Positions 9,380 through 55,647 of a stretch of 64,000 nucleotides of DNA are shown one piece after another. Under the pieces are notes generated by a model. It was given only the letters and a program-made list of their open reading frames with translations, had not been told where the DNA came from and did no database searches. The stretch is taken from positions 1-64,000 of the forward strand of contig CAMAUX010000013.1 in NCBI GenBank assembly GCA_945861435.1, in the 5' to 3' direction. Position numbers and translations under genes: made by a program. This DNA is from Chthoniobacter flavus. GTDB taxonomy: Bacteria > Verrucomicrobiota > Verrucomicrobiia > Chthoniobacterales > Chthoniobacteraceae. Within the stretch, counting starts at the first letter, position 1. The number at the start of each line of letters is the position of its first letter.

Positions 9380-9394
9380 GGGAGGATAGTTTCC

Positions 9395-9419
9395 GCGCCC
9401 CTCCATCATCGGGGGGCGC
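9395..9419 (-). repeat. GC-rich hairpin in the leader of the 872-aa dehydrogenase gene
   Basis: A 7-bp perfect inverted repeat (gcgcccc ... ggggcgc) with an 11-base loop lies 16 bases upstream of the chosen ATG. It could be a leader hairpin affecting translation, or incidental in GC-rich DNA. There is no T-tract, so it is not a convincing terminator for the RND operon. Confidence 0.35.
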
Positions 9420-37252: not shown

Positions 37253-38686
37253 ATGCTCACCCTCAACGGCCTACCCAAATCCTCGTGCGCCGGAATCACA
37301 CGCCGCGAACTCCTGCAGATCGGCGGTGCGGGCCTCCTCGGACTCTCGCTCCCCAAACTCTTCGCAGCCCAATCCACTTCAGCCCCCTTCCGCGGCGGCC
37401 GCGCCAAGTCCGTCATCTTCCTTTTTCTCTTCGGTGGACCGAGCCAGCTCGAAACCTTTGACCTGAAACCGGATGCACCCCGCGAAATCCGGGGGCCGTT
37501 CACCCCCATCCGCTCGCGCACACCGGATCTGCTCATGTGCGAGCACCTCAGCCGTCTTGCTGGAATCTCGAACAAGTTCGGGATCATCCGCACGATGTCC
37601 CACTCGTACAACGACCACAGTGGTGCGGCCCACTATTTGCAGACAGGAAGACGCTGGCATCTGCCGGTGGGCGGCGGGTTCTCAGCCACGCCGGAAGACT
37701 GGCCCTCAATGGGCTCGATCGTCGAATACCTCAGCCAGCAGGCTCCAGGCGGCCTCGACAAACACTCCCCATCCTACGCAGTGCTTCCCAACTGGCTGGG
37801 TCGCCTCCAAGACGTCGGCCAGTACCGCCGTCCGGGGCAATACGCAGGCTGGCTGGGAAACGGCTACAACCCCATGACCACCCGCATCGACAAACGTGGG
37901 AAGTCCGACAATCCCTACTGGCGCGATTGCCCGGACCCAGAACTCAACTACACCATCGAGGGCCTCGATCCCTTGGTCCCCATGGACCGGGTGCGGGAAC
38001 GCGACGCATTGCTGCGCCAACTCGAAAGCATCCGCAGCCGGCTCGCCTCAGGCGAGGCAGACGCTCTCGACCAGCACCGCAAACGCGCCATGGCTCTCAT
38101 CGCCTCCGACACAATGGCCGCCGCCCTCGACATCCGCCGCGAACCCGAACAAATCCGGGACCGCTACGGCCGCCATCTCTTCGGCCAGAGTTGCCTGATG
38201 GCACGCCGATTCGTGGAGGCCGGAACCCGTTTCGTCACCGTTCACTACGACTGCGTCGACGGTTACAGCTGGGACTCCCACCTGACGAGCGACGACGTCC
38301 GAAACCACCTGCTGCCCACCTTCGACCAAGCCTGCGCCGCGCTGCTTTGCGATCTCGAAGAGCGCGGCCTTCTCGATGAGACCCTCGTCGTCGCCATCGG
38401 CGAAATGGGACGCACCCCCGTGGCCAACGCAAAGTGGGGCCGCGGCCACTGGAGCACCTGCTTCCCTGCACTCCTCGCCGGCGCAGGCATTCGCGGTGGC
38501 ACCGTGTACGGAAAGACCGATGCCAAGGCCGAGTACCCCACGGAGGGAACAGTCACCCCCGAGGACCTCGCAAAGACCATCTATTGGGCGCTGGGAGTGG
38601 ATCCAGAAATGTTCCTCTCCAACCGACAGGGGCGCCCAGTCCCTCTGGTGGAAAGCGGCCGCCCGCTCATCCAACTCTTCGGCTGA
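37253..38686 (+). CDS. DUF1501 sulfatase-like exported protein with Tat-type signal
   Basis: 477-aa DUF1501 protein, start at ATG 37253 (MLTLNGLPKSSCAG); the track ORF begins 47 codons earlier. Twin-arginine-like signal TRRELLQIGGAGLLGLSLPKLFA, then the alkaline-phosphatase-superfamily-like core: KSVIFLFLFGGPSQLETFDLKPDAP at the start, TMSHSYNDHSGAAHYLQTG in the middle, and VVAIGEMGRTPVANAKWGRGHWSTCFPALLAGAGIRGGTVYGKTD near the end. Usually encoded next to a DUF1549/DUF1553 cytochrome gene in PVC bacteria, but no such partner is adjacent here. Function in the family is not established. Confidence 0.87.
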   Translation: MLTLNGLPKSSCAGITRRELLQIGGAGLLGLSLPKLFAAQSTSAPFRGGRAKSVIFLFLFGGPSQLETFDLKPDAPREIRGPFTPIRSRTPDLLMCEHLSRLAGISNKFGIIRTMSHSYNDHSGAAHYLQTGRRWHLPVGGGFSATPEDWPSMGSIVEYLSQQAPGGLDKHSPSYAVLPNWLGRLQDVGQYRRPGQYAGWLGNGYNPMTTRIDKRGKSDNPYWRDCPDPELNYTIEGLDPLVPMDRVRERDALLRQLESIRSRLASGEADALDQHRKRAMALIASDTMAAALDIRREPEQIRDRYGRHLFGQSCLMARRFVEAGTRFVTVHYDCVDGYSWDSHLTSDDVRNHLLPTFDQACAALLCDLEERGLLDETLVVAIGEMGRTPVANAKWGRGHWSTCFPALLAGAGIRGGTVYGKTDAKAEYPTEGTVTPEDLAKTIYWALGVDPEMFLSNRQGRPVPLVESGRPLIQLFG

Positions 38687-38991
38687 GCACGACGCGAGCA
38701 TCCGCACTGCTGAAAACGCACGACAACGCGCATTCCATCCCCGGCGCGGCCGGACTTCACAACCGATCTCACCCCCCCGCTTCTCGCGCTTCGACGTGGC
38801 GGCTATCCAGCGACAAACCACCCAGAATCCACCAGGTAGTGAGCAACTGCGCAGTCGCCCCGAAACAAGCCGCGTCCAGCATTCCAAATCCTTCTCGATT
38901 GGCCTCAACTACCCACCAATAAATCCCCCCGGACCGGGTTGCCTCACCGGAAGCCCTCCGCATTCAATCTCTCAACCGCACCCATCTCGCC
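38687..38991. other. 305-base gap, no gene seen
   Basis: Contains no ORF with recognisable homology, no T-tailed hairpin after the DUF1501 gene, and only a 7-C run. It probably carries the promoter for the dehydrogenase fusion gene, but I cannot point to convincing hexamers. Confidence 0.5.
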
Positions 38992-41900
38992 ATGAACACA
39001 CGCCTCATCGCTCTCGCCGCATTTGCTGGACTCCCCATCGCGGCCTTCGCCCAGACCATGAACTCCGCGCCGCAGAATGCGCCCCACGCAATCATGCCCG
39101 TCCCAGACGCAGCCGCCACCAAGCGCGCGCAGACCGTGGCCGCTCCGCAAAAAGGAGAGCGACTGGTCCTCATCGGCAACGGCCTCGCCGAACGCGACGT
39201 CCATTACAGCCTCATCGAGACCGAACTCCACAGCCGCTACCCTCAGGGCGATCTCTTCGTGCGCAACATGGGCCACGTCGGCGACACCCCGGGCTTCCGA
39301 CCCCACCCCTCCCGCGTCTCCCAATGGGCGTTCCCCGGAGCCGACAAATTCCACCCGGAACTCGCCACTCATCACGGCAAGGGCTTCTTCCCCATGCCCG
39401 ATGAATGGCTCGCCTTCCTCAAAGCCGACACCATCGTCGCCTTCTTCGGCTACAACGAATCCTTCGAAGGCCCAGCACGCGTCGCGAACTTCGAAGCCGA
39501 ACTCGATGCATGGGCCCAGCACACGCTGAGCAAAGCCTACAACGGCAAAGCAGCCCCCCGCCTCGTTCTCGCCTCCCCCATCGCCTTCGAGGACCAGTCC
39601 GCAAAACGCGACCTGCCCAACGGCCAGAAGGAAAACGCGAACCTCGCCCTCTACGCCAAAGCCGTCGAGTCCGTCGCCAAGAAGCACGGCCTCACCTTCA
39701 TCGACCTGTTCACATCCACCAAGGCTCTCTTCGCCTCCTCAAAAGCCCCCCTCACCACCGGCGGATTCGTCCCCAACCAGGAAGGCTACAAACGCCTCGC
39801 AGAAATCCTCGCCGACGGTCTCTACGGCAAGCAGGCGCGCGTCTCCAAAGCCGACCCCGCCCAACTCCACGAAGCCGTCCGCCAAAAGGACTGGTTCTGG
39901 AACAATGACTACAACCTCCTCAACGGCGTCCACACCCACGGCCAGCGCTACAACCCCTTCGGCCCGCAGAATTATCCCGAGGAAGTCGCCAAAACCCGCG
40001 AGATGGCGGCACTGCGCGACACCCTCATCCACGACGTCGCCGCCGGCCGCAAACGCGACCTCACCGTCGACGACAGCAAGACGCGAACACTTCCTCCCGT
40101 CCCCTCCAACTACCAACCCAGCGTCAAGAACGGCAGCGAACAGTACCTCTATGGCGACGACGCCGTGAAGAGCCTCACCGTTCCCGAGGGCTACAAAGTC
40201 GAACTCTTCGCCAGCGAAAAGGAGTTCCCCAACCTCGCCAACCCGCTCCAACTCTCCTTCGACAACAAGGGCCGCCTCTGGGTCGCCGTCGCCCCCACCT
40301 ATCCCCATTACCGTCCGGGCGACGCCATGCCCAACGACAAGATCCTCATCTACGAAGACACCGATGGCGACGGCAAGGCCGACCGCGAGACCGTATTCGC
40401 AGACCATCTCCACCTCCCCATCGGCTTCGAGTTCGCGCCCGAAGGCGTCTACCTCTCCCAGGAGCCCAACCTCGTCCTCCTGCGCGACACCAACGGCGAC
40501 GACAAAGCCGACAGCTCCGAGATCATCCTCGGCGGATTCGACACCCACGACACCCACCACGCCATCAGCGCCTACACCGCCGATCCCAGTGGCGCGTTCA
40601 TGCTTTGCGAAGGCGTGTTCCTCCACACCAACGTCGAGACCCCGTACGGCCCCGTGCGCTGCGTCGACGGCGGCTTCTTGCGCTACAGCCCCCAGCGCGG
40701 TCACCTCGAGCGCACCTCCCAACTCTCCATCCCCAACCCATGGGGCTTCGTCTTCGACCGCTGGGGTCAGGACTTCTTCCTCCACACCTCCGGCACCACC
40801 ATGAACTGGATGCTGCCGGTCTCGTTGAAGACCCCCTTCGGCGCCAAGAACCCAGCCACCATCGACCTCATCCCCAAGGGCCAGAGCGTGCGCCCCACCT
40901 CCGGCCTCGAAGTCGTCTCCTCACGCCATTTCCCGGAAAACGTCCAAGGCGACATCATCCTCTGCAACGCCATCGGATTCCTCGGCATCAAACAGCATCA
41001 GATCGAGGACGAAGACACCGGCTGGAAAACCACCTTCCGCCACGATCTGCTCAAGAGCTCCGACGGCAACTTCCGCCCCGTCGACCTCGAGTTCGCACCC
41101 GACGGCTCCCTCTACGTCATCGACTGGCACAACCCTCTCATCGGTCACATGCAACACAATGCGCGCGACCCGCTCCGGGATCACGTCCACGGCCGCATCT
41201 ACCGCATCACCTATCCCTCGCGCCCGCTCCTGAAGCCTGCGCAGATTGCCGGCGCGCCCATCGCAACCCTCCTCAACAATCTTCAGGAACCCGAACTGCG
41301 CACCCGTTACCGCACCCGCCGCGAACTGCGCGCACGCTCCGCAGCCGAGGTGCTCCCAGCCCTCAAAACCTGGGTGGCAGGTCTCAACAAAGCCGACGCC
41401 GAATACGAACACTCCGTGCTCGAAGCGCTCTGGACCACATGGGGCCTCAACCAAGTGGACGAACCCCTCCTTCGACAACTCCTCCAATCCCCGGACTTCC
41501 ACGCCCGCTGCGCCGCCGTCCGCGTCCTGCGCTACAGCACCCACCGCATCGCCGACCACGCCGCGCTGTTGGAAAAAGCCGCCGCGGATCCCCATGGCCG
41601 CGTGCGTCTCGAAGCGCTCGTCGCCGCCTCGTGGCTCCCGGATAATGAAGCCACCGCCGCCAAGAAAATTGTCGCGATCGCTGCCGCGCTACCGCTCGAT
41701 AAATGGAGTCAGGCCCCAGCAAAAACGGCGACCGAGCGTCTCGCTGGCATCGTCGGCACCGAGGCCCCGGATCATCCCGAACTCGCCGCGCCCAAGCATC
41801 TGACTCAGGAGGCAAAGACTCAGTATCTCGCCGGCCAGAAGATCTACTTCCGCGAAGGCCACTGCGTGACCTGCCACCAACCCAACGGCAAGGGCCTCGA

Positions 41901-42222
41901 CCCCGCCTTCCCCTCCATTGAAAAGAGCCCGTGGGTCGCGGGCGATCCCGAGCGCCTCATCAAGGTCGCCATGTACGGCCTCATGGGACCCCTCGAGGTC
42001 AACGGCAAGAAGTACGACGGTCAGGTCCCCATGACACCCTTCGCCGGAATGCTCAACGACGCCGAAATGGCTTCCGTGCTCACCTTCGTGCGCAACAGCT
42101 TCGGCAACAAATCCGAGCCCGTCTCCGCCTCACAGGTCCAGAAGGTCCGCGCCGCTTATCCAGGACGCACCACCTTCTTCACCGCCGAGGAAATCCTCAA
42201 AGCCCACCCGCTCACCCAGTAG
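38992..42222 (+). CDS. Exported pseudo-SGNH/dehydrogenase/HEAT/cytochrome c fusion
   Basis: 1076-aa periplasmic protein. Signal peptide MNTRLIALAAFAGLPIAAFAQ; SGNH-hydrolase-like domain (about 57-285); dehydrogenase propeller (about 385-760; YEDTDGDGKADRETVF, DWHNPLIGH); HEAT-like helices (about 770-920); and a cytochrome c domain with CVTCH at residue 958. The SGNH part has lost its catalytic residues: block I reads LIGNGLAER instead of GDS, and the block V region reads GGFVPNQEGYK, without the Asp-x-His pair. It may therefore bind rather than cleave a glycan and present it to the dehydrogenase. It is followed 33 bases later by the DUF1592 dihaem gene. Confidence 0.85.
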   Translation: MNTRLIALAAFAGLPIAAFAQTMNSAPQNAPHAIMPVPDAAATKRAQTVAAPQKGERLVLIGNGLAERDVHYSLIETELHSRYPQGDLFVRNMGHVGDTPGFRPHPSRVSQWAFPGADKFHPELATHHGKGFFPMPDEWLAFLKADTIVAFFGYNESFEGPARVANFEAELDAWAQHTLSKAYNGKAAPRLVLASPIAFEDQSAKRDLPNGQKENANLALYAKAVESVAKKHGLTFIDLFTSTKALFASSKAPLTTGGFVPNQEGYKRLAEILADGLYGKQARVSKADPAQLHEAVRQKDWFWNNDYNLLNGVHTHGQRYNPFGPQNYPEEVAKTREMAALRDTLIHDVAAGRKRDLTVDDSKTRTLPPVPSNYQPSVKNGSEQYLYGDDAVKSLTVPEGYKVELFASEKEFPNLANPLQLSFDNKGRLWVAVAPTYPHYRPGDAMPNDKILIYEDTDGDGKADRETVFADHLHLPIGFEFAPEGVYLSQEPNLVLLRDTNGDDKADSSEIILGGFDTHDTHHAISAYTADPSGAFMLCEGVFLHTNVETPYGPVRCVDGGFLRYSPQRGHLERTSQLSIPNPWGFVFDRWGQDFFLHTSGTTMNWMLPVSLKTPFGAKNPATIDLIPKGQSVRPTSGLEVVSSRHFPENVQGDIILCNAIGFLGIKQHQIEDEDTGWKTTFRHDLLKSSDGNFRPVDLEFAPDGSLYVIDWHNPLIGHMQHNARDPLRDHVHGRIYRITYPSRPLLKPAQIAGAPIATLLNNLQEPELRTRYRTRRELRARSAAEVLPALKTWVAGLNKADAEYEHSVLEALWTTWGLNQVDEPLLRQLLQSPDFHARCAAVRVLRYSTHRIADHAALLEKAAADPHGRVRLEALVAASWLPDNEATAAKKIVAIAAALPLDKWSQAPAKTATERLAGIVGTEAPDHPELAAPKHLTQEAKTQYLAGQKIYFREGHCVTCHQPNGKGLDPAFPSIEKSPWVAGDPERLIKVAMYGLMGPLEVNGKKYDGQVPMTPFAGMLNDAEMASVLTFVRNSFGNKSEPVSASQVQKVRAAYPGRTTFFTAEEILKAHPLTQ

Positions 42223-42255
42223 CCACGCCCCCCCTCAAACTCACCACTCCCGCAA

Positions 42256-45200
42256 ATGCGATCCGTCCTGCGAATCGTCCTGACCTCCTGCGTGCTCGCG
42301 CCCCTGGGCCTCTCCGGCGCCCCCTCCACGGACGCACCGCGCGCGGTCATGCCCGAAAAACACCGGGCGCTTTTCAAAGAACACTGCATCGCCTGCCACG
42401 GACCGGAGAAACAGAAGGGCAAGTTCCGCGTGGATGAACTCCCCCTCGAGATCACCACGATCGAGAGCGCCGAGAAGTGGCAGAAGGTCCTCAACACACT
42501 CAATGCCGGCGAAATGCCGCCCGAGGAGGAGAAGCAGCCCTCCACCGCCGCCAAGACCGACTTCCTCGACGATCTCGCCAACGTGATGGTCGCCGCACGC
42601 CGCAACCTCTCCGACCAGAACGGCACCCTCACCATGCGCCGCCTCAACCGGCGCGAATACAAGAACACCCTCCGCGCACTCCTCGGCATCGACATCAACG
42701 TGTCCGACCTCCCCGCAGACACCGGCACCGGTGGATTCGACACCTTCGGATCCAACCTCTTCATGTCGGCAAACCAGTTCGAGCAATACCAGAACCTCGG
42801 ACGCGAAGCCCTCGAGGAGGCGTTCGTTCGCCTCGCTGTGGCGGGCGAACAGCGCAGTCTCCGCTACGAAGCCGAGGACACCCTCAAGACCATCACCAAG
42901 ACCTACAACGAAAAGATCGACGCCCTCGCTCGCGCCAAACGCTGGGTCGCCGCGGTCGAGGCCGCCGCCGCACTCCCCGAAAATGCCACCGTCGTCGCGG
43001 AGACCCGAAAGGAATCCAAGGACGACGCCACCTTCCGTCGCTCATGGCAGCGCATTCACGGCGCACCGGCTCCCGAGGAATTCGGCTTCAACACCGTCGA
43101 GAATAACGCCGACAAGGCCAACGGTGCCCTCTCGTATGAAGGCACCATCGGTGCCGCCTACATGCGTCCCTATCACGAGCGCTACCTCAAGCAACCGCAC
43201 CTCGACACGGGAGCCTACCTTACCATCATGGCCGGCACGGACATCGGCAACGATACGCTCTCCATCTACGTGCCGCAAAACTGGCCCGTCGGCGAATACA
43301 CCGTCCGCGTACGCGTCGCCGCCACGCCACATGCACCCCCGGAACGCCGCTTCATCGAATTCGGCATCCATCCCCGCAACGGCCAGGTGATGAGCACCCA
43401 TGAGGTCACGGGAACCATGGACGCTCCGCAGATCATCGAAATCCCGCTCACCCTCACCAAGGGCAACACCGAACGCGACAACCGCACCCTCTTCATCCGC
43501 GAAAAGGGCAGCAACGATCACTTCACCCAAACCCGTCGCATCTTCGGCGAAGGCAAGTCCAAGAACGGCATCGGCCCGGAACTCGCCATCTGGGTCGACT
43601 GGATGGAGGTCGAACGCAAACCCGACACCGCCGCCGCGACGCCCAAATTCGGCATCGGTGCCAGCCGCCAGGTCGGCTCCGTCTCGGCGAAGGGCCTCAA
43701 CAAACTCCGCTACGAATGCGAGCAGGCCAACGAGAAGGTCTCCGCCTATCTCGCCGAACAGGTCGACGCACGCGCACGCGCCCAGGCATGGGTGAAGGAG
43801 GTCGACCAAGCCGCCGCCCGCCCCGAGAACGCAGAGGCCGCCGCGGACATCCGCAATAACTCCAAAAACGACGCCATCTTCCGCCGCTCATGGGCAAAGC
43901 TCCAAGGCGCTCCCTCCCCGGAATCCTTCGGCTTCAAAACGGAGGAGAACAACGCCGACAAGGCCAACTCCGCGCTCGGCGAGAACTGGCAGAAGTACCA
44001 CGAATACTACCTCTCAAGGCCGGCACTGGACCGTGGCGCCTACCTCGGCACTCCCACCATGCATCCCGCCGTGATGGCGCTGGGCTTCCTCCAACTCCCC
44101 GTGCCCGCGGAATGGAACAGCGGCGACTACGTCCTCCGCGTTCGCATCGCCGCTGCGAAGGAAGCTCGCCCCGAACAGCGCTTTCTCGAAGCCGGCATGC
44201 ACCCGCGCAACGGCATGGTGCGCGCCACCTTCGAGATCACCGGCACCATGGAGTCTCCACAGATCGTCGAGATGCCCTTCACTCTCTCACGCGTCCAAGA
44301 CGATCCCGGCGACCGCACCCTCTTCATCCGCGAGAAAGGCGCATGGGACAACAACGATGAGGGCGGCCGCAAACGCAGCGAAGCCCTGAAGCGCAACGGC
44401 ATCGGACCGGAGGCCGTCCTCTGGATCGACTACATGGAGATCGAGCGCCTCACCAACACCTCCCAGCCAGACAAAGCGCCCGCCATCGCCGCCCTGCGCA
44501 TCCCGCTCGACGACCAAGGCACCGCGCCCTCCAGCACAGACGTGCACGACGCCATCCAACGCTTCGCCTCCGTGGCATTCCGCGGCGCAGAGCCCCCACA
44601 GGACTACCTCGATCGCCTCACGAACATCTACGAAACAAGGCGCAAGGCGGGCGCCAAGCACAGCGCCGCACTCCGCGAAACGCTTTCCGTCGTCCTCTCC
44701 TCCCCGATGTTCCTCTACCTCGCCGAGCCCGCTCCCGAAGAAAAACGCCGCCCCCTCACCGGCCCCGAACTCGCCACGCGCCTCTCCTACTTCCTCTGGG
44801 GTGCGCCCCCAGACGATCAGCTCCTTGAACTCGCGCGCAACGGAAGCCTCGAAAAACCCAGCGTGCTCGCATCCGAAACCACGCGGCTCCTCGACGACTC
44901 GCGCTCCCGCGACTTTGTCCAAGGCCTCCTCTACCAGTGGCTCGGCATGGATCGCCTCGACTTCTTCGAGGTCAACCGTCCGAAGTACCCGCGCTTCGAC
45001 GACAGCACCCGCCTCGCCGCAAAAAAAGAGGTCTACGAAACCTTCGCCCATCTCCTGCACCACAACGCCCCGCTACGCGATCTCCTAAAATCCAACTACG
45101 CCATCCTCAATCACCTGCTCGCCGAATTCTACGGAATCCCCGGCGTCTCAGGCGACGAGTTCCGCAAGGTGCAGCTCCCAACGGACTCCCCGCGCGGCGG

Positions 45201-45804
45201 CCTCCTCGGCATGGCCGCAGTCGCACTCATGGGCGGCAACGGCGACCGCACCAGCCCCGTTGAACGCGGCGCATGGGTGCTGCGCAAAATCCTCCACGAA
45301 CCGCCTCCGCCCGCCCCCGCCAACATCCCGCAGATCACGCGCCTCGCCGGCAAAGTACTCACCACCCGCGAACGCCTGCAGATGCACCAAGAAGATGCCC
45401 AGTGCGCCAGCTGCCACCGCAAGATCGACCCCGTCGGCTTCGCCCTCGAAAACCTCGACGCCGTCGGCCAGTGGCGCACCGAAGACACCTATCAAGTCAT
45501 GGACGAAAAGGGAAAACCCGTGAAGGGCGCCTCCAAGACATGGCAGATCGAGGCCAGCGGCCAGATCCACAAAGGGCCCGCATTCAAAGACTACTTCGAG
45601 TTCCGCAACATCGTGGCTTCAAAGTCCGACGCCTTCGCGAAGGGCTTCAGCGAGGTGCTCCTCGAATACGCGCTCGGACGTCCCGTCGGTTTCCGCGACG
45701 AACCCCTCGTCACCCAAATGGTCCGCGATGCAGCACAAAACAACCTCGCGGTGCGCGGCTTCATCCACACCCTCGTCGCCAGCAAGGAATTCCACACCAA
45801 GTGA
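42256..45804 (+). CDS. DUF1587/1592/1588/1585 dihaem cytochrome protein with duplicated module
   Basis: 1182-aa exported protein. Signal peptide (MRSVLRIVLTSCVLAPLGLSG), N-terminal cytochrome (CIACH, residues 44-48), DUF1587 (RLNRREYKNTLRALLGID, about 118-135), then two copies of a roughly 230-residue module (about 224-455 and 505-733). The DUF1595/1592 region follows (about 760-990; RPLTGPELATRLSYFLWGAPPDDQLL), then DUF1588 with a second haem motif CASCH at residue 1050 (CASCHRKIDPVGFALENLDAVGQ), and DUF1585 at the end (SEVLLEYALGRPVG). Such proteins are paired with DUF1552 proteins, as here. An electron-transfer or polysaccharide-oxidising role is suspected but unproven. The duplicated module looks like a carbohydrate-binding beta-sandwich. 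Confidence 0.88.
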   Translation: MRSVLRIVLTSCVLAPLGLSGAPSTDAPRAVMPEKHRALFKEHCIACHGPEKQKGKFRVDELPLEITTIESAEKWQKVLNTLNAGEMPPEEEKQPSTAAKTDFLDDLANVMVAARRNLSDQNGTLTMRRLNRREYKNTLRALLGIDINVSDLPADTGTGGFDTFGSNLFMSANQFEQYQNLGREALEEAFVRLAVAGEQRSLRYEAEDTLKTITKTYNEKIDALARAKRWVAAVEAAAALPENATVVAETRKESKDDATFRRSWQRIHGAPAPEEFGFNTVENNADKANGALSYEGTIGAAYMRPYHERYLKQPHLDTGAYLTIMAGTDIGNDTLSIYVPQNWPVGEYTVRVRVAATPHAPPERRFIEFGIHPRNGQVMSTHEVTGTMDAPQIIEIPLTLTKGNTERDNRTLFIREKGSNDHFTQTRRIFGEGKSKNGIGPELAIWVDWMEVERKPDTAAATPKFGIGASRQVGSVSAKGLNKLRYECEQANEKVSAYLAEQVDARARAQAWVKEVDQAAARPENAEAAADIRNNSKNDAIFRRSWAKLQGAPSPESFGFKTEENNADKANSALGENWQKYHEYYLSRPALDRGAYLGTPTMHPAVMALGFLQLPVPAEWNSGDYVLRVRIAAAKEARPEQRFLEAGMHPRNGMVRATFEITGTMESPQIVEMPFTLSRVQDDPGDRTLFIREKGAWDNNDEGGRKRSEALKRNGIGPEAVLWIDYMEIERLTNTSQPDKAPAIAALRIPLDDQGTAPSSTDVHDAIQRFASVAFRGAEPPQDYLDRLTNIYETRRKAGAKHSAALRETLSVVLSSPMFLYLAEPAPEEKRRPLTGPELATRLSYFLWGAPPDDQLLELARNGSLEKPSVLASETTRLLDDSRSRDFVQGLLYQWLGMDRLDFFEVNRPKYPRFDDSTRLAAKKEVYETFAHLLHHNAPLRDLLKSNYAILNHLLAEFYGIPGVSGDEFRKVQLPTDSPRGGLLGMAAVALMGGNGDRTSPVERGAWVLRKILHEPPPPAPANIPQITRLAGKVLTTRERLQMHQEDAQCASCHRKIDPVGFALENLDAVGQWRTEDTYQVMDEKGKPVKGASKTWQIEASGQIHKGPAFKDYFEFRNIVASKSDAFAKGFSEVLLEYALGRPVGFRDEPLVTQMVRDAAQNNLAVRGFIHTLVASKEFHTK
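42925..43620 (+). repeat. Internal module, copy 1, of the DUF1592 protein
   Basis: Encodes about residues 224-455: a short helix (RWVAAVEAAAALPENA), FRRSWQRIHGAPAPEEFGF, ENNADKANGAL, then a beta-sandwich ending in FIEFGIHPRNG, RTLFIREKG and IWVDWMEVERK. It aligns in order with copy 2. Confidence 0.8.
43768..44456 (+). repeat. Internal module, copy 2, of the DUF1592 protein
   Basis: Encodes about residues 505-733: AWVKEVDQAAARPENA, FRRSWAKLQGAPSPESFGF, ENNADKANSAL, FLEAGMHPRNG, RTLFIREKG and LWIDYMEIERL. In a 54-residue gap-free stretch near the start of the module, 35 residues are identical to copy 1 by eye. Confidence 0.8.
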
Positions 45805-45918
45805 TGGCTCACCCCACGGCAACTCACCTGCCAAACATCCGCTCCTCGAACTAAACCCACGCAGCAGCGGCGCTCCATCGCCCCCAACTTACCCCACGAA
45901 CCCAGAACATCCGGCACC

Positions 45919-47205
45919 ATGAAAACCCGTCGCCAGTTCCTCCAATCCAGCACCGCACTCATCGCCCTGCCCTTCCTCGATTCGCTGGGATTCCGCTCCT
46001 TCGCTTCAACCGCTGGTTCCGCCACGCCGCCCAAGCGCCTCATCTTCCTTGGCTTCGGCTGGGGAATCACGGAGAGCACGTGGTACCCGGACATCACCAA
46101 GCCCGGCACCGATTACGCACTGCCGATCGGGATCGCACCGCTTGCCCGCCACAAAGCGGACTTCTCCGTCGTGCAGGGGCTCTGGAACAAATACTCCAAC
46201 GAGGGACACTGGGGCAGCACCATGTGGCTCACGGGCGCCAACCGCTACGCACAGCCAGGACAGAGCTTCCACAACAGCATCAGCGCCGACCAAGTGGCGG
46301 CCGCAAAGCTCGGTCTCGAAACCCGCTTCGCCTCCCTCCAACTCAATGGCAGCCAAACCGGCGACCTCAGCGGCCATGGCCCCGGCCTTTCCATGGCATG
46401 GGACGTAAGCGGCAAACCCATCGGCGGTCTCAACGGACCCGTGGCCGCTTTCCACAGGCTCTTTGCCAAGGACACCACGCCCATCGAGGAACAGAAGGCC
46501 ATGCTCGCCCAGAAACGCAGCGTCCTCGACGCCGTGCTCGGCAACGCCAAATCCCTCCAGCGCGGCCTCGCGAAGAACGACAACGCCAAACTCGAGGAAT
46601 ACTTCCAGAGCATCCGCGACATCGAAGTCCGCCTCGCCAAGGAAGAACAGTGGATGGGCGTTCCCCAGCCCGCAGCCCCCCTCCCCGAACCCAAGCCCGG
46701 AGTCAACGGACGCGAGGAGATCAAGCTCATGTACGACATCATGCTCGCCGCGATGCAGACCGACAGCACGCGCGTCATGACCTTCCGCCAACCCGTGAAC
46801 ACCCTGCTCACCGCCATGGATATCAAAGTGCACCCGCACGACATGAGCCATTACCACACCACCCTTGGTGAAAAACTCGACGCATCCCAGCGCCGCGACA
46901 TCGCCCAGAGCGAGCTCCTCGCCGGATTCCTCGACAAACTCAAGAGCACCAAGGAGGCCGACGGCTCGCGCCTCTTCGACAACGTCGCACTCGCCTACGG
47001 CAGCAACATCCGCACCGGCCACGAACTCACAAACTGCCCCACCATCCTTACCGGCGGCGCGGCAGGCCTCAAACTCGGCCACAGTATCGTCGCCCCCAAG
47101 GACACCCCCCTCTGCAACGCATGGCTCAGCCTGCTCCACGGCGTCGGCGTGAAGGCCGAACGCCACGGCGACAGCACAGGCCTCCTCAAGGAAATCCTCG
47201 CCTGA
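45919..47205 (+). CDS. DUF1552 exported protein
   Basis: 428-aa protein with a twin-arginine-type leader (MKTRRQFLQSSTALIALPFLDSLGF) and a DUF1552 core (KRLIFLGFGWGITESTWYPD; ALAYGSNIRTGHELTNCPTILTGGAAGLKLG). DUF1552 genes are usually next to a DUF1592-type gene in Planctomycetes and Verrucomicrobia, exactly as here (114 bases downstream). The domain resembles DUF1501/sulfatase-like proteins, and its function is unknown. Probably folded in the cytoplasm before export. Confidence 0.88.
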   Translation: MKTRRQFLQSSTALIALPFLDSLGFRSFASTAGSATPPKRLIFLGFGWGITESTWYPDITKPGTDYALPIGIAPLARHKADFSVVQGLWNKYSNEGHWGSTMWLTGANRYAQPGQSFHNSISADQVAAAKLGLETRFASLQLNGSQTGDLSGHGPGLSMAWDVSGKPIGGLNGPVAAFHRLFAKDTTPIEEQKAMLAQKRSVLDAVLGNAKSLQRGLAKNDNAKLEEYFQSIRDIEVRLAKEEQWMGVPQPAAPLPEPKPGVNGREEIKLMYDIMLAAMQTDSTRVMTFRQPVNTLLTAMDIKVHPHDMSHYHTTLGEKLDASQRRDIAQSELLAGFLDKLKSTKEADGSRLFDNVALAYGSNIRTGHELTNCPTILTGGAAGLKLGHSIVAPKDTPLCNAWLSLLHGVGVKAERHGDSTGLLKEILA

Positions 47206-47389
47206 GCCATCGCCGCAACTCGCTCTTCAGCCCTTAAGGCTGCGCGATTCCCAGCAAAACATCCGCGATCAGCAACGCGCCGCGCGCAACCGCGGACGCA
47301 TGCGACATCGGGCCAAATCCCAAGCGCCACTGCTGAGTTCCCCTTCGCTCTGTTCCCCCGTATATCCCGCACAGTTCTGCCCCGAACCG

Positions 47390-48469
47390 ATGACACCTCC
47401 CTTTTCCCGACGCCAGTTCCTTGCGGCCGCCGCCACCACCACCGCCGCACTGCTCCATCCCCCACGCCTGCGCGCACAGCCCAAGACCGCCCCGGATTTC
47501 CACGGCTCCATCGTCGGCCATGGCTCTCTGCGCTACCGCATCGATAAACGCTGGAGCAAGGCCGATCCCCAAAAGTTCCCGGTGCGCGACTGCCACGAGA
47601 TGGTGCAGGTCGCCGATGGCCGCCTCTTCCTGCTCACCAACCATCCCCAGAACAACGTCCTCATTTACCACACCGACGGCACCCTCCTCGGACACTGGAC
47701 TCTCAAGCTCTCCGGCGCACACGGACTCACCGTCCACACCGACTCCGAAGGCCGCGAATTCCTCTATCTCACCGACACTAGCGGGCGCGTTCTCAAGACA
47801 ACCCTCGAGGGCGAAATCGAACTCGAACTCTCCCACCCATCCAAGCTCGGTGCCTACAAGGACACCGATGCCTACAGCCCCACGGAAACTGCGGTCTCCC
47901 CCTCCGGCGACATCTACGTAGCCGACGGCTACGGATCCCAGTTCATCCTTCGCTTCGATCACCAAGGCCGATTCCTCGGAAAGTTCGGCGGCAAAAGCAC
48001 CCAACCCTCCAATCCCGGCAAGTTCATGCAGGCCCATGGCGTCGCGCTCGACACCCGCGGCCCAGAACCCCTCCTCGTCTGCACCGAACGCGTCCGCAAC
48101 GAATTCAACTGGTTCACCCTCGATGGAAAACATATCCGCGGCGTCTACCTCCCAGGCGCCTATGTCAGCCGCGCTGTAATCCACGGGCGTCACCTCTACT
48201 CCGGCGTCTGCTTCGGCGCCAAACCCGACGACTACCGCATGTGGCAGAAGCGCGGCTTCGTCACCATCCTCGACGAACACGACAAGGTGGTCTCCAACCC
48301 CGGCGGCCAGAAACCCACTTACCGCGAGGGTCGCCTGCAACTGCTCCTCCAAGACCAACCGATCTTTGAGAACTGCCACGACGTCTGCGTCGACTCGAAG
48401 GACGACCTCTACGTCTGCCAGTGGAACAGCGGCAACGTCTATCCCTACAAACTCCACCGCGAGTCTTAA
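47390..48469 (+). CDS. Tat-exported NHL-type beta-propeller protein
   Basis: About 359 aa. The start at ATG 47390 gives a Tat-like signal (SRRQFLAAAATTTAALLHPPRLRA); the track ORF is 30 codons longer without a signal. The rest consists of repeated NHL/six-bladed propeller units (GAHGLTVHTDSEGREFLYLTD, DIYVADGYGSQFILRFDHQGRFLGKFG, DLYVCQWNSGNVYPYKLH). Such proteins resemble peptidyl-glycine or sugar-lactone lyase folds and may bind or process a sugar lactone. Lies in the glycan-oxidation cluster between DUF1552 and an esterase gene. Confidence 0.72.
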   Translation: MTPPFSRRQFLAAAATTTAALLHPPRLRAQPKTAPDFHGSIVGHGSLRYRIDKRWSKADPQKFPVRDCHEMVQVADGRLFLLTNHPQNNVLIYHTDGTLLGHWTLKLSGAHGLTVHTDSEGREFLYLTDTSGRVLKTTLEGEIELELSHPSKLGAYKDTDAYSPTETAVSPSGDIYVADGYGSQFILRFDHQGRFLGKFGGKSTQPSNPGKFMQAHGVALDTRGPEPLLVCTERVRNEFNWFTLDGKHIRGVYLPGAYVSRAVIHGRHLYSGVCFGAKPDDYRMWQKRGFVTILDEHDKVVSNPGGQKPTYREGRLQLLLQDQPIFENCHDVCVDSKDDLYVCQWNSGNVYPYKLHRES

Positions 48470-48553
48470 GCGAAGCCTCCGCTTCGTTTGCCCAAGCCAC
48501 TTCCGAAGCCGCCAAGCAACCACACCTCCAAACCACCGCGACCACCCCTGCCC

Positions 48554-50617
48554 ATGCGCACCATCCTCACAGGCCTCTTCGTCCTCGTCGCCGCATCCAT
48601 CCTCACTGCTGCAGATACCGCCACTCCGCGCGGTGACGCACTGCTCAAGGACTACCTCCAGAACCAGACCGCCGCGCTCTCCACACACTCCGCCGCCCTC
48701 TATCCAGACCTGCCCGCATGGCAGGCCGCGCGCCCCGAACTCGAGCGCCAGGTGCGCGAGATGCTCGGACTCGACCCATGGCCGGAAAAAACCCCGCTCC
48801 ACGCCACCATCACAGGCAGCGTGGACTGTGACGGGTTCACCGTCGAGAACCTCCACTTCCAATCCCAGCCCGGCCTCTATGTCACGGCCAACCTCTACCG
48901 GCCCAAGAACCTTTCTGGCAAAGCACCCGCGGTCCTCTACCTCTGCGGCCACGGACTCGAAAAGGACAAAGCCACCGGCGTGAGCTACGGCAACAAGACT
49001 CATTACCAGCATCACGGAGCATGGTTCGCCAAGCACGGCTACGTCTGCCTCATCCTCGACACCCTCCAACTTGGCGAAATCGAGGGGCACCACCGCATCA
49101 CCTTCGACGAAGCCAAGTGGTGGTCTGTATCCCGCGGCTACACCCCCACCGGCGTCGAAGCATGGAATGCCGTCCGCGCGATCGACTACCTGCTCACCCG
49201 TCCCGAGATCGACCCGGAGCGTATCGGCGTCACGGGCCGTTCCGGAGGTGGCGGCTACACCTGGTGGATCACCGCCATCGACCAGCGCATCAAGACCGCA
49301 GTGCCTGTCGCGGGCATCACCGATCTTCACAACCACATCCTCGATCACACCATCGACGGCCACTGCGACTGCATGTTCATGCTCAACACCTACCAGTGGG
49401 ATTACTGGCAGGTCGCTGCCCTTGCCGCACCGCGCCCCGTCCTCCTTGCCAACACCGACAAGGACAACATCTTCCCGCTCGATGGCGTCGTGCGCCTGCA
49501 CAGCGAGGTGCGTCACCTCTATCACCTGCTCGGCGTGCCGCGCCACTGGGGCCTCAACATCACCGAGGGTCCCCACAAAGACACGCAGGAACTCCAGCTC
49601 CACGCCTTCGTCTGGATGGAACGCTTCCTCAAAAACAGCGAAGCACCCATCGAAAGCCTCGCCATGCCGCGGATCCCACGCGAACAACTCCGCGTCTTCC
49701 AGCACCTGCCAACCGACCAGCGCAATACCACCGTCGAGGAAAGCTTCGTCCCCGCAGCCCCGGCACCCACCCTCCCCGAAACGCCCGCCCATTGGGCATC
49801 CCAGCGCGATGCATGGCTGAACGCCCTGCGCACAATATGCTTCCGAGCCTGGCCTGCTAAAGCCCCAGATTCCGCACCGGAACTCGTCTCCACGCGCACA
49901 CTCGAAGGCATTCAACTCACGCACTACTCCCTCCAATCCCAGCCCGGCGTCTCCCTCGACCTCTACCTTCTCCACTCTCCCACCCTCAAGGAACCGGAAC
50001 TCATCACCCTCAACGTTCTGGATCAAAAAGGATGGAAGGACTTCGCCGCCATGGCTCTCACCGGCGACCCTCTTCCGCCCTCAGCGAGAGCCGACCTCGC
50101 CTCCCAACGCAGCATGCTTCTCGCACGCCCATGGGTCATGGCTTACCTCGCTCCGCGAGGGATCGGCCCCACCTCGTGGAGCCACGGATTAAAGAAGGAC
50201 ACCCAGAGCGAGCGGCGTCTCATCATGCTCGGGCAAACCACCGACTCCATGCGCGTGTGGGATGTGCGGCGCACCGTGCAAAGCGTGCGCAGCATCGCAA
50301 GGTACAAGACCACCGCTCTCTGGCTCCAGGCCGAGGGCGCCATGGCAGGCGTCACCCTTTACGCATCCCTCTTCGAACCCGACATCACCCGACTCGACCT
50401 CTGGCAGCTCCCACACTCCCACACCACTGGCCCCACCTTCCTCAACGTCCTGCGCGTTCTCGACCTGCCCGCCGCCGTCGCGCTCGCCGCCGAAAGAAGC
50501 CGGGTCCGCATTTACGACGCCGATGCAACTGCATGGACCTATCCCTCAAAAGTCGCCGCACAGCTCGGCTGGCCCACCGACCGCATCGACATCCGCACCC
50601 CGCCGCCAGCGCCCTGA
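48554..50617 (+). CDS. Two-domain alpha/beta hydrolase, acetylxylan-esterase-like
   Basis: About 687 aa, start ATG 48554 after the shadow N-terminus. Signal peptide MRTILTGLFVLVAASILTAAD. Domain 1 (about 60-370) is an acetyl-xylan-esterase/dienelactone-hydrolase-type fold: APAVLYLCGHG, IGVTGRSGGGGYTWW with nucleophile Ser230, LANTDKDNIFP (acid) and ITEGPHKD (His). Domain 2 (about 440-685) repeats the fold, but the elbow position reads WLQAEGAMAG, with no serine, so it looks inactive and may bind substrate. It would remove ester groups so that the neighbouring dehydrogenases can reach the polymer. It follows the beta-propeller gene by 84 bases. Confidence 0.78.
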   Translation: MRTILTGLFVLVAASILTAADTATPRGDALLKDYLQNQTAALSTHSAALYPDLPAWQAARPELERQVREMLGLDPWPEKTPLHATITGSVDCDGFTVENLHFQSQPGLYVTANLYRPKNLSGKAPAVLYLCGHGLEKDKATGVSYGNKTHYQHHGAWFAKHGYVCLILDTLQLGEIEGHHRITFDEAKWWSVSRGYTPTGVEAWNAVRAIDYLLTRPEIDPERIGVTGRSGGGGYTWWITAIDQRIKTAVPVAGITDLHNHILDHTIDGHCDCMFMLNTYQWDYWQVAALAAPRPVLLANTDKDNIFPLDGVVRLHSEVRHLYHLLGVPRHWGLNITEGPHKDTQELQLHAFVWMERFLKNSEAPIESLAMPRIPREQLRVFQHLPTDQRNTTVEESFVPAAPAPTLPETPAHWASQRDAWLNALRTICFRAWPAKAPDSAPELVSTRTLEGIQLTHYSLQSQPGVSLDLYLLHSPTLKEPELITLNVLDQKGWKDFAAMALTGDPLPPSARADLASQRSMLLARPWVMAYLAPRGIGPTSWSHGLKKDTQSERRLIMLGQTTDSMRVWDVRRTVQSVRSIARYKTTALWLQAEGAMAGVTLYASLFEPDITRLDLWQLPHSHTTGPTFLNVLRVLDLPAAVALAAERSRVRIYDADATAWTYPSKVAAQLGWPTDRIDIRTPPPAP

Positions 50618-51730: not shown

Positions 51731-51979
51731 GGAACAACTCCGGTAGAGGAACCGACGGCCGCGCATGCGCGCCTGCCGATTCGTTTAACTGCCTGCTGGA
51801 TGCAAAACTTATCAAAACCCCGGACAGATGGAAAGCGCCCTGAGCAAAACATCGTCCAACGCTGACAGCCTAAAGGATGCCAACACCCCTGATAAAAAAA
51901 CGCACCACCCCCACTCAAAAACACAAACGGGCACCCTCTATGCTCCTTAAGAGTGCGTCCCTCAAGACCCTCAAACACT

Positions 51980-52855
51980 ATGAAACCAACCAACCCAATC
52001 CCCGCGGCGGACCCCAACTCCCAGCGGCCATGGCGGCCACGCTTCATCCAGCACATCCTCGGGTGGACGTGCACACTCCTCGTCCTGATGCATGCCGCCT
52101 CGACCCTCGCCGTCGCACCCGCCGGCTACCAACTCCTCTGGTCCGATGAGTTCGATGGAAACGCCCTCGATCCCGCCAAGTGGAAACACCACTGGAGCGG
52201 ACAGCGCCGCGACGCCCTCAACGCCCCGGAGGCTGTGAGCGTCGAGGACGGTTTCCTCGTCATCAGCACCTTCACCGAGGACGGCATCCACCGCACCGGC
52301 ATGATCAGCACCGAGGGGCTCTTCGAAGCCCGCTACGGTTACTGGGAAGCTGCCATCCAGTTCCAAGACGCACCGGGCACCTTCTCCGACTTCTGGATCC
52401 ACTCCCCCACCATCGGCGAGCCCCATGACAACGTGGCCGTGGCCGGAGTCGAAATCGACGTCATCGAGCACCGCACCATCGACAACGCCGGCAACGATCT
52501 CTCCGGCAAGTCCTCCATGAACCTCCATTGGGGCGGCTATGACATCTACCACGATGGCGACGGCGATCTCACCCCCGACCTCCAACTCGGCACAGGCTTC
52601 CATGTCTACGGCTTCGAATGGACCGAGGCCGCTTACCGCTTCTACATCGATGGCAGGCTCGTCTGGAGCCACCACAAATCCATCTCCCAACGCACCCAGT
52701 ACGCCATCTTCAGCACCGAGGTGGAGAGCGAACTCTGGTCGGGCCGCATCCCCGAGGAAGGCTACGGCGACCGCCTCAACACCCGGGTGAAAATGCTCGT
52801 CGACTACGTGCGCTACTACGCCCCCGACCCCTCCACGCCCTCCCTCAAGGACTAA
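51980..52855 (+). CDS. GH16 family glycoside hydrolase (beta-glucanase/agarase-like)
   Basis: About 291 aa. N-terminal hydrophobic signal (WTCTLLVLMHAASTLA), then a GH16 jelly-roll: GYQLLWSDEFDGNALDPAKW (start of domain), FEARYGYWEAAIQFQDAPGTFSDFWIHS, and the catalytic motif VEIDVIEH with Glu158 (nucleophile), Asp160 and Glu163 (acid/base). FHVYGFEWTEAAYRFYIDGRLVW follows as in agarases and porphyranases. It hydrolyses internal beta-linkages in an extracellular polysaccharide; specificity cannot be read. The 3' end overlaps the convergent GH63 gene by 11 bases. Confidence 0.88.
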   Translation: MKPTNPIPAADPNSQRPWRPRFIQHILGWTCTLLVLMHAASTLAVAPAGYQLLWSDEFDGNALDPAKWKHHWSGQRRDALNAPEAVSVEDGFLVISTFTEDGIHRTGMISTEGLFEARYGYWEAAIQFQDAPGTFSDFWIHSPTIGEPHDNVAVAGVEIDVIEHRTIDNAGNDLSGKSSMNLHWGGYDIYHDGDGDLTPDLQLGTGFHVYGFEWTEAAYRFYIDGRLVWSHHKSISQRTQYAIFSTEVESELWSGRIPEEGYGDRLNTRVKMLVDYVRYYAPDPSTPSLKD

Positions 52856-55541
52856 CCGCAGCACCAGACGGCACCGCCGAACCCGCACGCAGGCTGTCGC
52901 GCTTCTCGCCCACAAGCTTCACCACCAGCGCGGTCCATCCCGTCTGGTGCGAGGCCCCAATCCCCTCGCCGGTCTCCGCGTGGAAGTATTCGTGGAAGAG
53001 CAACAGCTCCTTCCAATGCGCCACATCGCCGTAACGCGTCGCCCCGCCAAAACACGGACGGTGCCCGTTCGCATCCGGGACAAAAAGCGCGATGAGCCGG
53101 TCGCAAAGATCCAGCGCCACCTCTCTCAGGCTCGCCATCCGCCCGGAGCCCGTGGGGTACTCGATCGTGAAGCTCTCCCCGTAGAAATGCGCGTAACTCT
53201 CCAGAGCCTCGATCAGCAGGTAGTTGGTGGGAAACCAGATCGGCCCGCGCCAGTTCGAGTTGCCGCCAAACATGTCCGTCGTCGCCTCCCCGGGCGCATA
53301 CGCCACCTCGTGCCGCTGCCCCCCGTGCTCGAACGTGAAGGGCGTGTCCTCATGCGTCTTGCTGAGTGAACGCACGCCGAACTCCGAAAGAAACTCCCGC
53401 GGATCCAGCATGTAAGCCAGCGTCCTGCGCAGACGATCCGCCGTCGGAATCGCCAGCAGACAGCGCCCGGGCGTCCCGTCCGTCGCGCGCCGCACCTTGA
53501 TGTAGCGCAGAAGATCCGGCCGGTTCGTCAGAAACCAGTCCAGCCGCTTGCGGAACCCGGGCAGCGCATCAATGGTTTCCTGCTTCAGCACGCTCACCGC
53601 GCACAAAGGCAGCAGACCCACAAGGGAACGGATCCGCAGCGGGATCGGATCGCGATGGTTGATGATGAGTTGGTCGTAATAGAACCCGTCCGCCTCGTCC
53701 CAGAGCCCTGTCCCGCCCAGCGAGTTGATGGCATCGCAGATGCTCACGAAATGCTCGAAGAACTTCGAGGCGATGTCCTCGTACGCAGGCCGCACCAGCG
53801 CCAGCTCAAGGGAGATCGACAGCATCGTCAGACAGTACGACGCCATCCACGCCGTGCCGTCGGCCTGATTCAAACGCCCCCCACCAGGCAGCGGACGCGA
53901 CCGGTCAAACACCCCGATGTTATCGAGCCCAAGGAACCCGCCGCCAAACACGTGCCGGCCCTCGACGTCCTTGCGGTTCACCCACCACGTGAAATTGAGC
54001 AGCAGCTTCTGAAACGCACGCTCAAGGAAGAACACATCCCGCTCCCCGCGCGCGTCCGCCATCTTGTACACGCGCCACACCGCCCACGCATGGACGGGTG
54101 GATTCACATCCGAGAAGTTCCACTCGTAGGCCGGTAACTGCCCGTTGGGATGCATGTACCATTCCCGCAGCAGCACCAAAAGCTGCTCCTTGGCAAAGTC
54201 CGGATCCACTGCACAGAACGGAATCATGTGGAAGGCCGTGTCCCACGCCGCAAACCACGGGTACTCCCATTTGTCGGGCATCGAGAAAACATCCTTCGCG
54301 TAGAAATGTGACCAGTCGGAATTGCGTCCCTGCAGCCGAGCCTCGGAAGGTGGCCTTCCGTTGCCCGCGCGCATCCACTCCTCCACCACGTAGTAGTAAA
54401 ACTGCTTCGTCCACAAAAGCCCCGCGTAGCCCTGCCGACAGACCCTCCTCTCCTCCTCGGAGATGCCCTGCGGTATCACCCCATCGTAAAAGGCTTCACT
54501 CCCAGCGATCCGCTCCGAGAACGTCTCCTCAAAACCCTCCAGCGCGTTGAGCCCATTCGCCTCGCCCACCAAGTGCAGCCGGCAACGGATCGTCGCCGAT
54601 GCGCCGGGCGCCACCACGAGGGAAAAATGCGCGGCCGCCTTTGTACCCTCCAGCGCCGGATTCACCGCCTCCGCCTCCCCTTGAATCAGCAACCGATGGA
54701 AGGCGTCCTTCACGTAGGGCGACGGATTGTGCTCCGCGCCAAAACTGCGGTGGTTGGTCTCGTTGTCGGTGAACAGCCAGCGCGGCTCAACCGACTCGCC
54801 TGCCGCCTCCGCGTAAAAGAGAAAGTCACCCAACCCCTCGTGCTGAAGCGCCAGCCCGCCCCCCACCGCACGCATCCACGGCTTGTCCAACGGCGCCTCC
54901 GGATTATCCACCCATTCCCATGTGTTCCGGAACCAGAGGCTCGGCAGAACATGGATGGGCGCTGGTTCGGGACCATGGTTGGTCACAGTGATCCGCCAAA
55001 GCAGGTCTTCGGGGGAGCGCTTTGCCACCTCCTGAAGAACGTCAAAATAACGCCCCTCATCGAAGAGCCCCATGTCTGCAAGCTCACATTCAGGTCCGAG
55101 CCGGCCCAGACGCTGGTTTTCCTCACGCAGCGCCGTGTACGGATACCGCCCCTGCGGATACTTGTAGAGTGCCTTGGTGTAGGAATGGCTCGGCGTCGAA
55201 TCGAGGTAGTAATAGCACTCCTTCACGTCCTCACCGTGGTTGCCCTCCACCCCGCTCAACCCAAAAAGCCGCTCCTTGAGGATCGTGTCCTGTCCATTCC
55301 AGAGGGCGGGCGCAAAGCACAGCCTGCACTGCCGGTCCGTCCATCCCTGCAATCCGTCCTCCCCCCATCGGTAAGCACGCCGCCGCGCATGATCATGGGG
55401 GAAGCTCTCCCAACTATTGCCGTGGTCGGAATCATCCTCGCGCACCGTCCCCCACTGCCGTTCGCTCAGGAACGGTCCCCAGCGACGCCACCGCTTCTGT
55501 CCTCCTCTTCCCTCCGCAAGCCGATCCTTCTCCCGATGCAT
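52845..55541 (-). CDS. GH63/MGH1-type glycoside hydrolase
   Basis: About 898 aa. The track ORF begins 96 codons upstream within the PQQ gene region; ATG 55541 gives [11 protein letters not shown] and the expected family length. (alpha/alpha)6-barrel glucosidase of the GH63/mannosylglycerate-hydrolase-like group: [26 protein letters not shown] carries the probable catalytic Asp, WEYPWFAAW is strongly conserved, and [20 protein letters not shown] holds a second acidic position. No signal peptide, so it is cytoplasmic and probably cleaves short alpha-linked glycosides such as glucosylglycerate or trehalose-like solutes. Confidence 0.88.
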
Positions 55542-55647
55542 GAGTAAGGGTTTAGCAAACCCTTTGCCTGCGAGCAAAACCAACCTGCGATTTACCACCT
55601 CAAAACACCGGGAACTGCACAAAAAACCGCGGCGGCTCACTCTCCCG

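Follow-up and report, generated by a model that had tools for sequence, protein, structure and literature searches.

The PSCyt and PSD domain names go back to Studholme et al. 2004. In Verrucomicrobia, a family of unknown genes has been described as the usual neighbour of the PSCyt3 gene, CBM domains occur, and the pairing as well as a carbohydrate-related role have already been proposed (He et al. 2017, PMC5615132). Cbp2D of Cellvibrio japonicus combines DUF1587 and two CxxCH domains with a CBM2 (PMC8981238). Growth of Cellvibrio on insoluble cellulose requires Cbp2D (PMC12542752), and a wheat-straw metasecretome contained a CBM2-DUF1592 protein of Cellvibrio (PMC6004670).

In the 64-kb stretch of Chthoniobacteraceae DNA analyzed here (the window), the six plus-strand genes of the original prediction were real and as described according to Pfam and TIGRFAM domain matches (Table 1). 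All six encode export leaders, as had been claimed, with the Tat type present in the DUF1501, DUF1552 and NHL proteins and the Sec type in the other three; leader types (RR motif vs ordinary Sec) were read by eye. The three haem centres were also recovered as one CxxCH motif in the DUF7133 protein (residue 958) and two in the dihaem protein (residues 44 and 1050). The DUF7133 protein additionally matched TIGR02604 (PVC dehydrogenase-like, 210.8 bits at a cut-off of 122.2), and the pseudo-SGNH character assigned to it was confirmed: the GDS serine motif reads GNG in the window copy and in each of the nine orthologues, and the window copy also lacks the Asp/His of block V. The DUF7133 gene is separated from the dihaem gene by 33 bp, and further carbohydrate genes are located elsewhere in the window. 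Promoter and terminator scanning yielded no more matches than shuffled sequence, and an Rfam search returned zero matches.

Table 1. Coordinates of the six exported genes and of features within the dihaem protein gene (positions in the window).
Feature	Position	Strand	Evidence and remarks
DUF1501 protein	37253..38686	+	PF07394, 299 bits; Tat-type leader ITRRELL
Pseudo-SGNH/DUF7133 propeller/HEAT/cytochrome c protein	38992..42222	+	PF23500, 224 bits; Sec-type leader
Dihaem DUF1592 protein	42256..45804	+	PSCyt1, PSD3, PSD5, PSD4, PSCyt3, PSD2 (Pfam); Sec-type leader
N-terminal haem c site CIACH (PSCyt1)	42385..42399	+	Conserved in 52/52 aligned sequences
CBM6/35-like jelly-roll module 1, with helical insert	42850..43620	+	Foldseek, repeats; boundaries approximate
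CBM6/35-like module 2, tandem copy	43699..44448	+	Repeat analysis; boundaries approximate
C-terminal haem c site CASCH (PSCyt3)	45403..45417	+	CxxCH and conservation
DUF1552 (HXXSHH) protein	45919..47205	+	PF07586, 250 bits vs gathering score 30; Tat-type leader KTRRQFL
NHL-type beta-propeller	47390..48469	+	Tat-type leader FSRRQFL; upstream start 47300 possible
Two-domain alpha/beta hydrolase, AXE1/S9-like esterase	48554..50617	+	GRSGGG nucleophile elbow; Sec-type leader

Within this run, a conserved association was observed between the DUF1592 and DUF1552 genes. In the Chthoniobacteraceae genome, all 35 DUF1552 genes had a DUF1592/PSCyt3 gene no more than 5 kb away, with 2.6 expected (binomial P about 3e-40). 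The two were also linked at 73 of 80 loci drawn from several phyla (among them Verrucomicrobiota, Planctomycetota, Lentisphaerota, Acidobacteriota and Bacteroidota), while the seven unlinked loci corresponded to contig ends or short contigs. These 80 loci were collected by a scan with the alignment of closer homologues, more diverse alignments being too variable. The closest orthologues of the window's own pair remain together in relatives, and a close copy is present in the cultured Chthoniobacter flavus Ellin428. The two-gene module (42256-47205) is thus shown by computation to be a conserved unit with about 35 copies in the genome.

The remaining four genes did not follow this pattern. The original prediction had treated all six as one export-dependent system for de-esterifying, binding and oxidising a glycan; its reading as a single operon directed at one glycan is consistent with the shared strand, the export leaders on every product, the 33-bp gap and the carbohydrate genes elsewhere in the window. 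Neighbourhood comparison argues against such an operon, since the closest pair orthologues in relatives are accompanied by none of the other four genes, which are absent within about 12-15 kb of the pairs in the genomes G030 (87-96% identity) and G025 (74-89%). Their orthologues sit elsewhere and without a conserved neighbour in the case of the DUF7133 gene (nine genomes, in which it stands alone), the propeller (five) and the esterase (three), and that of the window DUF1501 gene (one genome) is likewise located elsewhere. Moreover, in 12 relatives rplQ, which precedes the run in the window, has none of the six genes after it. Proximity to PSCyt3 genes occurred at chance rates for both DUF1501 (4/37, expected 4.8) and DUF7133 (4/37, expected 3.2), and from these rates it follows arithmetically that about 0.8 pair per genome should have both genes no more than 7 kb away by chance alone. 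We therefore consider a six-gene operon very unlikely; the other four genes are independent and mostly chance neighbours. Lack of co-occurrence in other genomes, which the original prediction had listed as refuting evidence, was the outcome for the complete six-gene set. Since only DUF1592 and DUF1552 co-occur in other genomes, the real object is the two-gene module.

DUF1501 belongs with a different partner. In 55 of the 62 cases in the genome the DUF1501 gene adjoins PSCyt2, with the window copy among the seven that do not, and it was accordingly rejected as a member of the DUF1592-DUF1552 pair. The window DUF1501 gene is an orphan of this parallel PSCyt2-DUF1501 module.

The dihaem protein has the domain order PSCyt1-PSD3-(2x CBM6/35-like)-PSD5-PSD4(=DUF1592)-PSCyt3-PSD2, with all six Pfam domains scoring above their curated cut-offs, and nearly all of its relatives contain exactly two CxxCH motifs. 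Downstream of CIACH, M87-P88-P89 is invariant in the family, and this Met is the likely axial ligand of the N-terminal haem as judged from the alignment. H1044, just before CASCH, is invariant as well, and a conserved Met or His is absent after CASCH in the family alignment. The two modules between PSD3 and PSD5 are 49% identical to each other with an 846-bp period, and their CBM6/35-like assignment derives from Foldseek matches of the AF2 model to CBM35 and CBM6. The catalytic core gave no convincing PDB match, PSCyt1 retrieved no X183 chain among its matches when searched for homology to the X183 structures, and sequence searches found no solved structure for either DUF1592 or DUF1552.

This architecture could also belong to an accessory electron shuttle, in which the dihaem protein binds glycan and feeds an LPMO-like enzyme while DUF1552 serves as its folding or assembly partner. 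The X183 domain of Cbp2D slowly reduces an LPMO (PMC8981238), and the N-terminal haem with its invariant MPP resembles a His/Met site of the electron-transfer type. We regard such a shuttle as quite unlikely, as the relatives of Cbp2D in T. turnerae were judged unlikely LPMO donors (PMC10916295), LPMO is absent among the 25 commonest families of pair neighbours, and thirty-five different pairs are many for a single generic donor.

The surroundings of the pairs are diverse. Their 108 same-strand neighbours span 78 Pfam families, among which carbohydrate enzymes form a minority and sulfatases (8/108) and FGE (3/108) are represented. PF06439 was found in four of the 108 and prompted us to consider a 3-keto-glycoside pathway (oxidation followed by PF06439 cleavage), which was rejected: in the genome, none of the 24 genes for PF06439 (3-keto-disaccharide hydrolases) has a PSCyt3 gene within 5 kb, and their proximity to DUF7133 or PSCyt2 was not above chance. 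The heterogeneity of the neighbours would suit a pair that acts on a non-glycan (e.g. a lipid, cell-wall or aromatic substrate) and uses its CBM-like modules for attachment only. The recurrence of CBM modules in the dihaem family (Foldseek; PMC5615132) and the cellulose phenotype of Cbp2D (PMC12542752) make this improbable.

For the DUF1552 protein, an AF2 model was obtained with a pLDDT of 88 and a pTM of 0.87. In a Foldseek search against the PDB, nearly all of the 50 matches listed were sulfatases, LtaS/YejM, phosphonate monoester hydrolase or PafA-type phosphatases (best E 1.2e-4), and the best matches in a viral library were DUF1501 and sulfatases. Since TM-scores were low (about 0.4), the predicted alkaline-phosphatase/sulfatase type of fold is supported at the superfamily level only. 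HHalign identified DUF1552 and DUF1501 as homologues (98.6%, E 1.4e-15), and the alignment, which establishes this relationship computationally, pairs H97 with H122 and H368 with H399, all 100% conserved. Neither this fold nor the homology was found described in the literature on Verrucomicrobia PSCyt3 genes. H97, D124, H311 and H368 are invariant in DUF1552 and H307 is kept in 72 of 73 sequences, and the C-terminal strand-loop aligns with the SDHG region of sulfatases. The sulfatase motifs C/S-x-P-x-R and the DD/SDHG metal ligands are absent. With CxPSR missing and an invariant His occupying or adjoining its position, DUF1552 is unlikely to be a classical sulfatase.

The same features bear on whether DUF1552, as a member of the alkaline phosphatase superfamily, actively hydrolyses a sugar sulfate, phosphate or carboxyl ester and is regenerated or regulated by the haem protein. 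While the superfamily fold (Foldseek), the homology to DUF1501 and five highly conserved His/Asp across the N- and C-terminal halves would accommodate such an activity, the lack of the canonical Cys/Ser nucleophile motif and of the SDHG ligands renders it rather doubtful. A further tentative idea, which we hold to be unlikely, places DUF1552 and DUF1501 in one Tat-exported class of the alkaline-phosphatase fold, in which a histidine metal site has taken over from the nucleophile. Members of this class would provide the catalysis, or hold the substrate, in two parallel haem-coupled complexes that oxidise glycans and have been massively duplicated; bacteria would then possess an oxidative means of attacking polysaccharides in addition to LPMOs and hydrolases.

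The glycan oxidation of the original prediction did not hold for the six-gene set and remains plausible for the DUF1592-DUF1552 pair, with its two haems, CBM6/35-like modules and Cbp2D-like architecture. According to the mechanism that we propose, an (oligo)saccharide would be bound by the CBM-like modules, either on the cell surface or within the periplasm, and may then be processed at a site made up of the PSD4/PSCyt3 core, the histidine-rich DUF1552 pocket or both. Use of the Tat route by DUF1552 would be in keeping with cytoplasmic folding around a metal. Electrons would pass from the C-terminal haem to the N-terminal His/Met haem, then to cytochromes of the periplasm and into the respiratory chain. 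Taken as a whole, a functional unit formed by the pair at 42256-47205, with four independent neighbours and a glycan-binding, haem-coupled mechanism, has in our estimate about an even chance of being correct. The sulfatases and FGE among the pair neighbours speak in its favour. Against it count the low TM-scores of DUF1552, the dihaem core without a convincing PDB match, the minority of carbohydrate enzymes among the neighbours, the lack of PF06439 genes near PSCyt3 and the judgement on the T. turnerae relatives as LPMO donors. With about 35 PSCyt3-DUF1552 and about 55 PSCyt2-DUF1501 pairs in one genome, uncharacterised periplasmic chemistry claims a considerable share of the proteome in bacteria that are widespread in soil and freshwater. 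Narrowing six genes to two, with a predicted fold and a candidate active site for the partner and a possible link of the haem protein, by analogy, to the cellulose phenotype of Cbp2D, yields a small testable target.

Compared with known systems, the window pair shares its domains with the Verrucomicrobia PSCyt3/DUF1552 genes (PMC5615132) and differs by its two tandem CBM6/35-like modules. Cbp2D and the Teredinibacter turnerae proteins TERTU_2913/3803 are similarly exported multi-haem c proteins, CBM-bearing in the case of Cbp2D and TERTU_3803, but have CBM2/CBM10 instead of CBM6/35-like modules, and a DUF1552 partner is not described for them in PMC8981238, PMC10916295 or PMC12542752. Compared by the description in the legend of Fig. 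1 (PMC8981238), Cbp2D resembles the dihaem protein in having a haem c domain, DUF1587 and a second CxxCH domain (in Cbp2D the C-terminal X132); the dihaem protein lacks the CBM2 and X158 (YceI-like) domains of Cbp2D. The alkaline phosphatase/sulfatase superfamily resembles DUF1552 in its predicted fold, whereas the invariant His triad and the missing CxPSR set DUF1552 apart. Finally, the DUF1501-PSCyt2/PSD1 pairs also combine an exported haem c protein with a Tat-exported DUF1552 homologue, although their haem protein belongs to another family and the window holds the orphan DUF1501 only.

The six plus-strand genes of the run named by the original prediction were all recovered, and each carries an export leader, three of the Tat-like RR type vs three of the Sec type as assigned by eye. 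This split agrees with the rule that attachment of haem c follows export by Sec and that the Tat system carries folded proteins. The haem centres anticipated, at least three, are matched by three CxxCH motifs, one in the DUF7133 protein and two in the dihaem protein. The SGNH domain of the DUF7133 protein is indeed a pseudo-domain, with GNG replacing the catalytic serine in the window copy as well as in 9/9 orthologues.

Genes of the run and other features of the window
Feature	Position	Strand	Leader	Motifs, matches or remarks
DUF1501	37253-38686	+	RR	
Pseudo-SGNH / DUF7133 (TIGR02604) / HEAT / cytochrome c protein	38992-42222	+	Sec-type	CxxCH at residue 958
Dihaem PSCyt/PSD protein	42256-45804	+	Sec-type	CxxCH at residues 44 and 1050
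DUF1552	45919-47205	+	RR	
NHL propeller	47390-48469	+	RR	
Two-domain AXE1/S9-like hydrolase	48554-50617	+	Sec-type	
Two more large DUF7133 (TIGR02604-type) proteins	1185-9409	-		matches at 3429-4634, 8120-9253
Single ORF, two tandem 3-keto-disaccharide hydrolase (PF06439/DUF1080) domains	26803-28116	+		matches at 26887-27495, 27550-28098; ~24 such genes in own genome
GH16 enzyme, after the run	51953-52855	+		kappa-carrageenase-like score weak, below cut-off
MGH1/GH63-like enzyme, after the run	52845-55829	-		

The reading of all six genes as one export-dependent glycan oxidation system is not supported; co-occurrence in other genomes, the check proposed with it, was not found. The window's own genome encodes 37 PSCyt3 (the dihaem type), 35 DUF1552 and 53 PSCyt2 genes, with about 65 matches to DUF1501 and about 43 to DUF7133. 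With expected counts taken from uniform random placement, which ignores gene clustering, 35/35 DUF1552 genes had a PSCyt3 gene on their own strand no more than 5 kb away vs 2.6 expected, and DUF1501 and DUF7133 were each within 5 kb of 4/37 PSCyt3 genes (4.8 and 3.2 expected, respectively), a chance rate. By arithmetic from these fractions, about 0.8 pairs per genome would have both DUF1501 and DUF7133 within 7 kb by luck. DUF1501's own partner is PSCyt2, found within 5 kb of 55/62 copies, always on the same strand (reciprocally 52/53); the window copy is one of seven exceptions, with 63 kb between it and the nearest PSCyt2. The genome holds two parallel families, about 55 DUF1501-PSCyt2 and 35 DUF1552-PSCyt3 pairs, each combining a Tat-exported AP-fold-type protein with an exported haem c protein. 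One DUF1501 paralogue (G000:C15:27894-28439) has an internal TAG stop and is possibly a pseudogene.

Among the relatives compared, many of them fragmented metagenome assemblies, the closest dihaem orthologues (genomes G030 and G025) adjoin a DUF1552 gene whose product is 96% and 89% identical to that of the window, respectively, and the other four genes are absent for about 12-15 kb around these pairs. Orthologues of those four were located away from the pair (DUF7133 in nine genomes, propeller in five, esterase in three and DUF1501, 79% identical, in one). The nine DUF7133 loci had no true conserved neighbour. Distant DUF1592 homologues about 3.5 kb from one of them (L149), and near the DUF1501 orthologue on the opposite strand (L159), are what chance predicts because of the copy numbers. 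None of the six genes followed rplQ, which precedes the run in the window, in 12 relatives.

The real unit is a two-gene module of known kind, of which the window copy is a subtype with tandem CBM-like modules. This dihaem-DUF1552 pair is ancient and broad: the genes adjoin each other in 73/80 named loci from several phyla, with DUF1552 on either side and frequent overlaps of a few bases, and nearly all dihaem copies have exactly two CxxCH. Among the seven unlinked loci, the contig stops at the dihaem gene in six, and the remaining one (L232) lies on a contig of 6.7 kb. Pairs also occur outside the PVC phyla, in Pleomorphovibrio marinus (L268, Bacteroidota) and Bryobacteraceae (L276, Acidobacteriota), and "planctomycete-specific" is therefore a misleading name. 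The former locus has two DUF1552 genes in tandem and a shorter dihaem ORF.

The dihaem protein is ordered as PSCyt1 haem (CxxCH and MPP invariant), PSD3, a tandem pair of modules sharing 49% identity, and PSD5-PSD4-PSCyt3-PSD2. In its model (pLDDT 84.5) Foldseek matched the tandem part to CBM35/CBM6-like jelly rolls and returned no convincing structural relative of the core, whose invariants include R842, D853, W895, Y959 and R1004. An invariant His precedes the C-terminal haem by six residues, no Met/His is conserved after this haem, and the site may be unusual or open.

For DUF1552 (pLDDT 88, pTM 0.87), nearly all PDB matches listed were alkaline-phosphatase-superfamily enzymes (sulfatases, LtaS, YejM, phosphonate monoester hydrolase and PafA), with TM-scores near 0.4 that point to the superfamily only. 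Because the fold is of the sulfatase type and the CxPSR nucleophile motif of sulfatases is absent, DUF1552 is predicted to be sulfatase-like in fold and not a classical sulfatase. Short sub-alignments, non-significant alone (E 0.12), placed a conserved His at the sulfatase Cys or one residue off. Homology to DUF1501 extends over most of the protein (HHalign 98.6%, E 1.4e-15); H97 and H368 align with H122 and H399 of DUF1501 and are 100% conserved (73/73, 44/44), and H311 falls one or two columns off H343. The fold assignment and this homology are useful additions.

The computation shows the pairing, the order of domains, both haem sites, the CBM-like modules, the class of fold and the homology to DUF1501. 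Beyond these results, we propose that a glycan would be held by the CBM modules and oxidized at the PSD4/PSCyt3 core, in the histidine pocket of DUF1552 or at both, and that its electrons would reach the respiratory chain via both haems. The 108 same-strand neighbours of pairs include eight sulfatases and three FGE, a context supporting the glycan reading. Both the pairing and a carbohydrate role had already been put forward by He et al. (PMC5615132). The closest protein with experiments is Cbp2D of Cellvibrio japonicus, whose domain map has an annotated DUF1587 and two CxxCH domains, X183 and X132 (PMC8981238). An LPMO donor role was judged unlikely for its T. turnerae relatives (PMC10916295), a wheat-straw metasecretome contains a CBM2-DUF1592 Cellvibrio protein (PMC6004670), and Cbp2D plays an important part in growth on insoluble cellulose (PMC12542752).
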